Shown here piece after piece: positions 8,761-11,511 of a stretch of DNA of 44,884 bases (positions within the stretch are counted from its first letter, which is position 1; every line of letters starts with the position of its first letter). Both the position numbers and the translations under genes were made by a program. The notes beneath the pieces are model-generated. The model was not told where the DNA came from and ran no database searches. It saw nothing but the letters and a program-made list of their open reading frames with translations. Source of the stretch: Halieaceae bacterium (GTDB lineage: Bacteria; Pseudomonadota; Gammaproteobacteria; Pseudomonadales; Halieaceae); assembly GCA_028282105.1 (NCBI GenBank), contig JANQIO010000020.1, forward strand, positions 1 to 44,884, in the 5' to 3' direction.

Positions 8761-9465
8761 ATGTTGTTTCAAGCGCGGATGTACCAGACGGAAGGGCAGG
8801 CGGCGAATGCGGCCGACGCACTGATCGAAGCTGGTTTTTCCAAAAACAGTGTCACTCGTTACACCCCACCTGGCGCCGCCGGTGGTGATATGGGCGGTGC
8901 GCCCGCCGCCGGGCCGGCCAGCGATTCTGCAGCCGCGCTGCGGGTGGGCGGTATCCTCGGTGAGCACGCCGGCTACTATGCCGATCACGTCAACAAGGGT
9001 TACAGCCTGGTGGCGGTGCAGCCCCCGTTTGGCACCATGTTGAAGGCCGAGGCAATTCTCGACGCCCACAACCCGCTGCCGCTGTCGCATATGCCGCCTC
9101 CGGAGCCCTTTGTGCCCTGGACCGAGCGCCCGGCAGCGTTTTCTTCCCTGTTCGGCTGGCCGACACTGACGCGCAGTGAAACCCCGTTTTCGGATTTCTG
9201 GGGGCTGAGCACCAAGCAGGATGGCCTGTGCCACTTCTCTCGGTGGTTCAAGCCGCTGAGCGATGGCCTGCGGATGGGTAGTAATCCGCTCACAGCCAAT
9301 GCCACGCCGCTGTCATCCATGGTTGGCATGGGCACCAAGAGTGGCCGCAATGAAGGTAAGACCGGGTCCTTTGGTATGTCGTTCAAGACGAAAGGCGCCA
9401 CGCCGTTTTCGTCCATGTTCGGTATGCCGATTCTCACCAAGCGCAAGCATTTCCTGACGTCCTGA
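8761..9465 (+). CDS. Unrecognised 234-aa protein with repeated P-F/L-S-S motif
   Basis: I do not recognise this gene. Residues 1-105 look like one small alpha/beta domain (ARMYQTEGQAANAADALIEA, later GYSLVAVQP and a helix), reminiscent of the stress-protein 17M/DUF1269 kind, with a Gly/Ala/Pro-rich linker at 36-60. Residues 120-226 carry about five copies of a P-[FL]-S-[SD]-x-x-G-type motif, near residues 124-137, 141-151, 165-178, 182-192 and 214-226 (for example TPFSSMFGMPILT). No signal peptide or membrane helix is obvious. GGAGG lies 6 bases before the ATG. A strong terminator follows, so it is transcribed apart from the puc operon. The role is unknown. Confidence 0.85.
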   Translation: MLFQARMYQTEGQAANAADALIEAGFSKNSVTRYTPPGAAGGDMGGAPAAGPASDSAAALRVGGILGEHAGYYADHVNKGYSLVAVQPPFGTMLKAEAILDAHNPLPLSHMPPPEPFVPWTERPAAFSSLFGWPTLTRSETPFSDFWGLSTKQDGLCHFSRWFKPLSDGLRMGSNPLTANATPLSSMVGMGTKSGRNEGKTGSFGMSFKTKGATPFSSMFGMPILTKRKHFLTS

Positions 9466-9474
9466 CCCTCCATA

Positions 9475-9506
9475 CCTGAAAGACGGCGTTTTTGCCGTCT
9501 TTCAGG
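9475..9506 (+). terminator. Strong intrinsic-type terminator
   Basis: CCTGAAAGACGGC (9475-9487) and GCCGTCTTTCAGG (9494-9506) form a perfect 13-bp stem with a GTTTTT loop. The stem is followed by a moderately T-rich stretch including TTTTATT. It lies 9 bases after the stop of the 234-aa gene and separates that gene from the puc promoter region. Confidence 0.8.
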
Positions 9507-9531
9507 GTTGAGGGTTTTATTGTGCCTGGTG

Positions 9532-9549
9532 TGTAAACTAAAATGGACA
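9532..9549. promoter_or_regulatory. Candidate PpsR/CrtJ operator upstream of pucB
   Basis: TGT at 9532-9534 and ACA at 9547-9549 are separated by exactly 12 bases. This is the TGT-N12-ACA signature bound by the photosynthesis repressor PpsR/CrtJ in purple bacteria. The inner bases match the fuller consensus only partly. It sits about 20 bases upstream of the proposed -35 element of pucB. The pattern alone is common by chance, but the location directly before an LH2 operon gives it weight. Confidence 0.5.
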
Positions 9550-9569: not shown

Positions 9570-9598
9570 TTGACAATAGCCGGGAGCCCTTTTAGGCT
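9570..9598 (+). promoter_or_regulatory. Candidate puc operon promoter
   Basis: A perfect -35 hexamer TTGACA (9570-9575) is followed after 17 bases by TAGGCT (9593-9598), a weak -10 element that overlaps a small GAGCC/GGCTC inverted repeat. The predicted transcript would have a leader of about 60 bases before the pucB GTG. The strong -35 with a weak -10 fits a promoter needing activation, but this is inference. Confidence 0.45.
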
Positions 9599-9665: not shown

Positions 9666-9821
9666 GTGGAAAATACCTCAGAAAAAGTGTGGCCTACTGG
9701 CCTGACTATTCGTGAGTCAGAAGAGGTCCATAAGTACATCATTGACGGCACGCGCGTGTTTTTTGTGATCTCACTGATCGCGCACGCTCTCGTCTATTCA
9801 TTGAGCCCCTGGCTCGGTTAA
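9666..9821 (+). CDS. pucB: LH2 light-harvesting complex beta subunit
   Basis: This 51-residue antenna polypeptide spans the inner membrane once and binds bacteriochlorophyll a and carotenoid in the LH2 ring. [15 protein letters not shown] is diagnostic of LH2 beta chains (compare ELHKYVIDGTRVF in Rhodopseudomonas/Rhodoblastus). His40 in [14 protein letters not shown] is the axial ligand of the B850-type pigment. His22 and Arg30 correspond to His12 and Arg20 of the R. acidophilus beta chain, Arg20 being a B800 contact. The start is GTG, 8 bases after GGAGG (9653-9657). A nearby ATG at 9658 is out of frame. pucA begins 15 bases downstream. Confidence 0.95.
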
Positions 9822-9836
9822 GCGAAGGAGACTGCT

Positions 9837-9980
9837 ATGAATAACGGCAAAATCTGGTGCATCGTCAATCCCACTATCGGCATTCCGCTGTTTCTGGGTG
9901 GTGTAGCACTTATTTCTTTCACCGTACATTTCGCCATTCTTGAGAACACCACCTGGTTCCCCGCCTTCTTTGGCGGCTGA
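9837..9980 (+). CDS. pucA: LH2 light-harvesting complex alpha subunit, Phe44-Phe45 type
   Basis: This 47-residue alpha polypeptide of LH2 opens with [17 protein letters not shown], which aligns with the R. acidophilus LH2 alpha N-terminus, where the modified Met1 ligates B800. His31 in [12 protein letters not shown] is the B850 ligand. The C-terminus reads WFPAFFGG, so positions 44 and 45 are both Phe, where B850 complexes have Tyr-Trp or Tyr-Tyr. Those residues hydrogen-bond to the B850 acetyl groups, and their loss gives blue-shifted antennae (B800-820 type). The C-terminal extension after this point is almost absent. AAGGAG lies 6 bases before the ATG. Confidence 0.95.
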
Positions 9981-10039: not shown

Positions 10040-10074
10040 AAGGCTATTCTTCCTAATTCTGCGGCGAGGTGGGT

Positions 10075-11511
10075 ATGAGCCGGCTGCGACTCAAACTACT
10101 GCATACGTGGGCAACGCTGAGCCCGCGCTTTCTCCCCTTTGCTGATATTGTCACCCCGGACCTGCCGCTGAGCAGGCTGTTCCGGCTGTCCCTGTTCCAG
10201 GTGTCTGTGGGTATGGCGCTGGTGCTGTTGGTGGGCACGCTCAACCGGGTGATGATTGTTGAACTCAATGTGTCCGCCGCCCTGGTGGGCCTCATGCTGG
10301 CCATGCCGCTGGTGTTTGCGCCTTTGCGCGCCCTGATCGGCTTCCGTTCGGATCATCACCAGAGCGCACTGGGCTGGCGTCGTGTACCGTTTATCTGGAA
10401 GGGGTCCCTGGCCCAATTCTCCGGCTTTGCGCTGATGCCTTTCGCGCTACTGGTGCTGGCCAAACAGGGCGAGTCGGGCAATATCGCGCCCTGGGTAGGG
10501 CAGTTCACCGCCGCCGTGTCTTTCCTGCTGGTCGGGGCAGGGGTGCACACCGTGCAGACCGCCGGTCTGGCGCTTGCCACCGACCTCACGCCGTCTGAAT
10601 CACACCCGCGGGTGGTGGGCCTGATGTACGTTTCCCTGCTGCTGGGCATGATTGTCAGCGCGCTGCTGTTCGGCGCCCTGCTGGTGGACTTCAGCCCGGG
10701 CCGCCTGGTGCGAGTGATCCAGTCAGCGGCAATTGCCACCATGGTGCTGAACGTGGTGGCCGTCTGGAAACAGGAGCCACGCCGCCCCGAGCGCGGTGTG
10801 CTGGCGCCGCGACCGGACCCGTCGTTCCGCGACGCCTGGGCCAAGTTCTGCGAGGGCGAGCACACAATCCGCCGGCTGGCGATTGTCGGCCTCGGTACCA
10901 TGGCGTTTGGTATGGCGGATATTCTGCTGGAACCCTTCGGCGGCCATGTGCTCAATCTCACGGTGAGCGCCACCACCTTGCTGACGGCGCTGTTTGCCGC
11001 CGGCGGCTTACTGGGCTTTGGCCTGGCCTCCAAGGTGATCGCTGCGGGCGCCGAATCCTACGTTATCGCCCGCCGCGGCGCGCTGATTGGTGTGCCTGCC
11101 TTCCTGCTGGTCATCGCCGCCGCGCCGCTACAGCAACCGCTGTTGTTTGTGATCGGCAATTTCCTGATTGGATTCGGCGGCGCCCTGTTCGGGCACGGCA
11201 CTTTGACCGCTACCATGAATCTGGCGCCGCGCGCGCAGGTCGGGCTGGCCCTGGGCGCCTGGGGCGCAGTGCAGGCCACGGCGGCCGGTGTCGGCATGGG
11301 GCTCAGCGGTGCCATTCGCGATATCGTCAATGCCGTGGAAGCGGCGGTCAGCCCGCTGGCAGCCGGTTCTGCAAGCGCTACGGGGTATCTTGCGGTCTAC
11401 GGCATCGAGGTGGGTCTGCTGCTGGTTACCATACTGGTGACCGCCCCGTTGGTACGCCAGGCGCTGGTCGAGCGTCGGCCTGAACCCACTGCCCCGGAAG
11501 CCGTGGCCTAG
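10075..11511 (+). CDS. pucC: PucC-type LH2 assembly factor (MFS/BCH2 family)
   Basis: This 478-residue, 12-helix membrane protein of the PucC/LhaA branch of the major facilitator superfamily is needed for LH2 assembly, probably by delivering pigment or shaping the nascent ring. The family pattern is clear in LPLSRLFRLSLFQVSVGMA, LNRVMIVEL, FAPLRALIGFRSDHH and GWRRVPFIWKGSL. A position directly behind pucBA favours PucC over its LH1 homologue LhaA. The ATG at 10075 follows GAGG by 5 bases; an in-frame GTG at 10069 is a poorer choice. The deformylase gene begins only 4 bases after the stop. Confidence 0.93.
   Translation: MSRLRLKLLHTWATLSPRFLPFADIVTPDLPLSRLFRLSLFQVSVGMALVLLVGTLNRVMIVELNVSAALVGLMLAMPLVFAPLRALIGFRSDHHQSALGWRRVPFIWKGSLAQFSGFALMPFALLVLAKQGESGNIAPWVGQFTAAVSFLLVGAGVHTVQTAGLALATDLTPSESHPRVVGLMYVSLLLGMIVSALLFGALLVDFSPGRLVRVIQSAAIATMVLNVVAVWKQEPRRPERGVLAPRPDPSFRDAWAKFCEGEHTIRRLAIVGLGTMAFGMADILLEPFGGHVLNLTVSATTLLTALFAAGGLLGFGLASKVIAAGAESYVIARRGALIGVPAFLLVIAAAPLQQPLLFVIGNFLIGFGGALFGHGTLTATMNLAPRAQVGLALGAWGAVQATAAGVGMGLSGAIRDIVNAVEAAVSPLAAGSASATGYLAVYGIEVGLLLVTILVTAPLVRQALVERRPEPTAPEAVA

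Follow-up and report, generated by a model that had tools for sequence, protein, structure and literature searches.

It is an established general rule that losing both hydrogen-bond donors for the C3-acetyls of the ring bacteriochlorophylls shifts the ring band to the blue. In Rba. sphaeroides, the ring band lies at 839 nm once one bond is removed and at 826 nm once two are removed (cited in PMC9618040). LH3 of Rhodoblastus acidophilus 7050 (1ijd) has a blue-shifted ring and a non-hydrogen-bonding pair (F44-L45) at alpha positions 44-45; it also has an extra bond from Tyr41, and comes from a second gene pair used at low light. The betaproteobacterium Rhodoferax antarcticus, an anaerobic, cold-adapted phototroph, makes an LH3 from its sole puc operon; its authors report F44-F45 and a peak at 819 nm (PMC5374385). 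Closest to the locus described here is the B800-820 (LH3) antenna of Pseudohaliea rubra DSM 19751, an aerobic phototroph whose whole cells peak at 804 and 821 nm (PMC3679898). Its PucA (L066) carries F44-F45; the pairing of this sequence with that spectrum was made in the present analysis, and the passages of PMC3679898 consulted here offer no explanation of the spectrum in terms of residues.

We analyzed a stretch of 44,884 nucleotides (hereafter, the window) from a Halieaceae bacterium (contig JANQIO010000020.1), in which pucB, pucA and pucC follow one another in a single operon on the + strand. The features discussed below are:

8761-9465, + strand: puc-linked gamma-like protein of 234 amino acids, an N-terminal alpha/beta domain followed by six repeats (from its family, its repeats and a structural model)
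9466-9525, + strand: strong hairpin followed by TTTTATT, terminator-like (-35.3 kcal/mol, z -7.6)
9532-9549, + strand: TGTAAACTAAAATGGACA, PpsR/CrtJ-type box (TGT-N12-ACA) 5' of pucB (position conserved in relatives)
9570-9598, + strand: TTGACA-N17-TAGGCT, candidate pucB promoter with a weak -10, read from the sequence
9666-9821, + strand: pucB, LH2 beta chain of 51 amino acids with a GTG start (open reading frame; PF00556, 38.3 bits; GGAGG 5' of the start)
9837-9980, + strand: pucA, LH2 alpha chain of 47 amino acids with His31 and Phe44-Phe45 (translation, PF00556, alignment with relatives)
9915-9917, + strand: codon for alpha Ser27, the equivalent of a Rba. sphaeroides residue (sequence)
9966-9971, + strand: codons TTC TTT for Phe44-Phe45, the C3-acetyl hydrogen-bond positions (sequence, relatives)
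10069-11511, + strand: pucC, LH2 assembly factor (PF03209, 477.8 bits); the start may instead be the ATG at 10075

The segment 9837-9980 is a genuine LH2 alpha gene, since its product matches PF00556 (40.3 bits, cut-off 23) and it has pucB directly 5' and pucC 3'. A GGAG ribosome-binding site immediately precedes the ATG, the protein has the MNxGK..W N-terminus of LH2 alpha chains, and its closest counterparts of known structure are alpha chains of LH2 or LH3 (9dwz, 9ek8 and 1kzu, for example). The first-pass annotation had counted His31, Phe44 and Phe45 from Met1, and the translation bears this out (His31 at 9927-9929, TTC at 9966-9968, TTT at 9969-9971, stop codon TGA at 9978-9980). It had also remarked that the chain stops two residues past Phe45 and lacks the usual tail; the position of the stop is correct, but the short tail is a family norm and not a peculiarity of this gene. 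In all eight Halieaceae PucA chains the C-terminus lies no more than four residues from position 45, and among 80 relatives the chain is exactly 47 residues long in 21 and at most 50 in 51. With 47-50 residues being usual, truncation was ruled out, and from these lengths we regard the short tail as uninformative.

Like P. rubra, which belongs to the same family, the host is an aerobic phototroph with a single pucBA, F44-F45, Ser27, a PpsR-type box and a puc-linked gamma-like gene. The two PucA chains are, however, only 66% identical, with Trp40-Phe41 in the window against Tyr40-Met41 in P. rubra; the gamma-like gene lies 5' of pucB in the window but between pucA and pucC in P. rubra; and the spectrum has been measured in P. 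rubra, whereas the window antenna is known from its genes. From these genes we infer that pucBA is expressed, that its products bind pigment, and at what wavelength they would absorb. Alpha 44 and 45, at which LH3 (B800-820) chains have no hydrogen-bond donor, are both Phe here. Phe44 and Phe45 cannot hydrogen-bond to the C3-acetyls of the ring pigments, and this would put the ring band well to the blue of 850 nm, beside a normal second band at 800-805 nm. It is highly likely that the ring band lies to the blue of 840 nm, and by analogy with the calibrated complexes it probably falls at 815-830 nm. The product would then be a B800-820 (LH3-type) antenna built from one gene pair, like that of P. 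rubra, with energy still running downhill to LH1 near 870-877 nm over a steeper step. The blue shift had been predicted in the first-pass annotation, and the F44-F45 spectra of Rfx. antarcticus and P. rubra support it, as do bond removal in Rba. sphaeroides and Rhodothalassium salexigens, which has Y44-F45 in its PucA (L077) and a published band at 840 nm. For the 815-830 nm reading we also counted the retention of Ser27, the PpsR-type box kept across the family, and the predominance of synonymous changes within the genus. Against an LH3-type reading, the compensating Tyr41 of Rbl. acidophilus LH3 is Phe in the window. We did not count Tyr41 as a requirement for LH3 because it is a feature of one complex and because P. 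rubra (Met41; 804/821 nm) also lacks it.

The exact wavelength is uncertain because donor-less pairs also occur in single-band complexes near 800 nm. The F44-M45 chain PucD of Rps. palustris makes no such bonds and gives a single band at 803 nm, and F44-L45 occurs both in LH3, at 820 nm, and in the LH4 complexes of aerobic phototrophs (Roseobacter denitrificans and others), at ~800 nm. On this comparison, residues 44-45 alone do not fix the wavelength. An LH4-like window antenna, in which the missing C3-acetyl bonds together with Phe41 collapse the ring band onto 800-806 nm to leave one near-infrared peak, would fit the single bands of PucD and of the F44-L45 aerobic phototrophs. It would also fit Bradyrhizobium BTAi1, whose PucA has the Phe-Phe pair and for which only 870 and 800 nm are tabulated, although that 800 nm peak may belong to the reaction centre alone. 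We nevertheless consider this outcome unlikely: the closest Phe-Phe calibrators absorb at 821 nm (P. rubra) and 819 nm (Rfx. antarcticus), and Ser27, which the window chain shares with P. rubra, is replaced by Ala27 in the F44-M45 chain of Rps. pseudopalustris.

A donor elsewhere could in principle take over from alpha 44-45 and hold the band at 835-850 nm. PucB keeps the B850 His40, the B800-region His22 with a DGTR motif, and Trp49 at His+9, and the last of these is a candidate for such a donor, given that a beta Trp forms a bond in Phs. molischianum (Trp44) and in Mch. purpuratum (Trp47). P. rubra shares this Trp as well as the Phe-Phe pair and yet absorbs at 821 nm, which makes this substitution very improbable. 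We also noted that PucB scores 61 bits with the NCBIfam LH1 beta model NF040862, exactly its cut-off of 61, so automatic annotation would call this LH2 beta chain an LH1 beta.

A second pucA with Tyr-Trp, which the first-pass annotation had named as a possible dominant antenna gene, was looked for in the draft genome of the host (4.1 Mb, 247 contigs, 95% complete), and family and profile searches found none. The draft contains exactly four LHC-family genes, namely one pucBA (LH2) and one pufBA (LH1), as well as reaction-centre genes. The LH2 pucBA is thus the only peripheral antenna found in this draft of an aerobic phototroph of the Halieaceae; these searches and the codon comparison below ruled out both a second pucA and a pseudogene. 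Among named genomes, Halieaceae MAGs come closest, PL25a_bin.6 (PucA identical, PucC 97% identical) being one of them. PucA is encoded by only 8 of 140 Halieaceae genomes. The pair at 44-45 is Phe-Phe in all four genomes of the window genus and in P. rubra, Tyr-Trp in G038, a second member of the P. rubra genus, Phe-Trp in NOR5-3 of the Congregibacter group, and Tyr-Trp in a second genome of NOR5-3's genus (G037). Residues 44/45 therefore switch from one related genus to another and, in two genera, among members as well. The window's genus would add to the aerobic phototrophs a genus with an apparent LH3-type antenna as its sole peripheral complex.

We next compared codons. Window pucA differs from its three congeners by 6, 11 and 19 synonymous but only 0, 1 and 3 replacement codons; F44-F45 is thus not a chance state, because it is conserved in four congeneric genomes while silent sites have diverged. 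Between NOR5-3 and G037, a pair near saturation at silent sites, PucA shows 20 silent codon differences and a single replacement, Y44F. This pair, whose PucA chains differ only in Tyr/Phe44, is a natural single-residue test of spectral tuning. In the P. rubra genus, where silent sites are likewise near saturation, PucB shows 6 silent and no replacement differences, and PucA has changed at 13 positions from residue 14 to residue 45, F44Y and F45W among them. These patterns are only suggestive of selection at the tuning site, because a single replacement in 47 codons would fall on 44 or 45 by chance with a probability of 2/47.

If instead the pair had drifted neutrally in a rarely used antenna, the substitutions would have no spectral consequence for the cell. 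This would suit how widespread the state is, its frequent switching on the tree (see below), and Congregibacter litoralis, in which puc genes are present but LH2 went undetected in one study. Three observations speak against drift and lead us to regard it as improbable: the protein is otherwise strongly conserved, with replacements on 44/45; Phe-Phe is fixed across the window's genus; and P. rubra cells show predominantly LH2-type absorption.

The first-pass annotation had proposed aligning related PucA at 44-45. Across the 80 nearest loci, a list that was ranked by similarity to a mostly Phe-Phe query and hence leans towards Phe-Phe, that pair was found in 37, and both donors were absent in 61. 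Because of this leaning, the search was repeated with a profile ending at residue 40, whereupon 17 of the 21 readable distinct chains again lacked both donors. These two counts ruled out Phe-Phe as a rare state; on these alignments, the Phe-Phe antenna is a common and previously described variant. On a PucC tree, which was a quick tree with many weak branches, no fewer than 16 changes are needed to account for the three donor classes, whose clustering barely exceeds that of shuffled labels.

Ser27 calls for separate comment, since the equivalent residue of Rba. sphaeroides reportedly bonds to C13-1 of B850. Among 76 PucA loci, Ser27 was present in 65 of 68 without Tyr44 versus 2 of 8 with Tyr44 (raw Fisher 1e-5). 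Despite this strong raw association, a role for Ser27 in compensating for the lost bonds is unproven, because few independent pairs bear on it: 3-4 agree and 0-1 go against.

Upstream of pucB, the four congeners and G037 share the PpsR/CrtJ-type box at -134 to -140; in P. rubra and G038 it is found at -212. The evidence for this box is its conserved position, because TGT-N12-ACA is no more frequent in the window than expected by chance. The candidate promoter TTGACA-N17-TAGGCT is retained in congeners, and a consensus scan did not report it. Between the gamma-like gene and pucB sits the terminator-like hairpin, which the consensus scan did not list.

The open reading frame 8761-9465 matched nothing in Pfam or NCBIfam, and other members of its family gave nothing above cut-off there except weak, YflT-like N-terminal matches. 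A profile built from five members detected relatives at 75 of the 80 puc loci, at most 3 kb from pucA and placed 5' of pucB, in the interval from pucA to pucC, or 3' of pucC; in two of the five loci without a match, pucA lies at a contig edge. Among 140 Halieaceae genomes, strong matches occurred in exactly the eight with PucA (Fisher 3e-13). G136 gave one additional weak, interrupted N-terminal match, and two genomes with reaction-centre genes (G006 and G014) had neither PucA nor the gamma-like gene. In a sample of 398 Pseudomonadota, the gene was present in 9 of 12 PucA genomes, and N-terminal-only matches better than 1e-6 occurred in three genomes without PucA. This distribution over PucA and reaction-centre genomes indicates that the gene tracks LH2 rather than phototrophy in general. 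No description of the family was found in the non-subscription literature searched, and by this measure the family appears undescribed.

The described protein most like it is the LH2 gamma-polypeptide of Rps. palustris (RPA1495, 7zcu chain S), an extended ribbon that binds six extra bacteriochlorophylls through serines and has been reported as confined to Rhodopseudomonas (PMC9618040). Both proteins come from LH2 producers and have a 16-residue repeat with a G-x-P-L core. All motif spacings in 7zcu gamma are 16, the C-terminal half of the new family repeats with that period (16 residues in 91 of 160 motif spacings), and in the window protein the motifs lie at residues 131, 147, 172, 188, 204 and 220 (spacings 16, 25, 16, 16 and 16). 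Unlike RPA1495, the window protein carries a domain at its N-terminus, and Phe, Trp, Met or Val (F, W, M, V, F and F in order) replaces the Mg-ligating Ser before Gly. Repeat units across the family have Ser at -4, -3 or -2, as found with a pattern that required a hydrophobic residue at -1.

A protein of Rhodopseudomonas sp. AAP120 (L086) links the two: its N-terminal domain scores 49.7 bits against the gamma-like family (best of 1000 shuffles, 7.4) and its repeats match 7zcu_S (E 6e-36), although it could be a fusion of unrelated parts. The family's C-terminal profile scored a non-significant 9.0 bits against 7zcu gamma. When gamma repeat units were compared with the family profile, the score was reached by 9 of 2000 permutations if the anchor columns (Gly and Pro) were kept and by 207 of 2000 if they were dropped. 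As the comparison passed only with these columns, we do not claim direct homology of the repeats. Searching the PDB with the window protein, with its repeats or with the profile of the family returned nothing significant, and the best Foldseek match to the protein's model was PII/PstA-like and not significant (E 0.7). In the model itself, an alpha/beta domain is confidently predicted at the N-terminus, and secondary structure is absent past residue 145.

We rate the chances as even that this family comprises widespread gamma-like LH2 subunits, in which an N-terminal alpha/beta domain would carry an extended ribbon of 16-residue period along the LH2 ring, at about one repeat per alpha-beta pair. 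Pigment binding by the protein is a more doubtful proposition. Were the family indeed LH2 subunits, the Rhodopseudomonas gamma-polypeptide would be a derived member of it, most aerobic-phototroph LH2, the window's included, would have an overlooked third subunit, possibly with extra B800 pigments, and the two-polypeptide picture of the ring would be incomplete for most LH2-making bacteria.

The collection of puc loci yielded some further observations. Alphaproteobacterial genomes L124 and L127 (also L134 and L135) have two tandem pucA genes ~1.2 kb apart, both Phe-Phe. PucA at 6001-6141 of L022, a contig binned as Anaerolineae, is identical to that at 6001-6141 of L016, an alphaproteobacterial MAG, and by this identity the Anaerolineae assignment is probably a binning error. 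Lastly, pucBA was found on contigs binned as Myxococcota or Gemmatimonadota (L032, L033, L037, L042, L057 and L060), through either transfer or misbinning.
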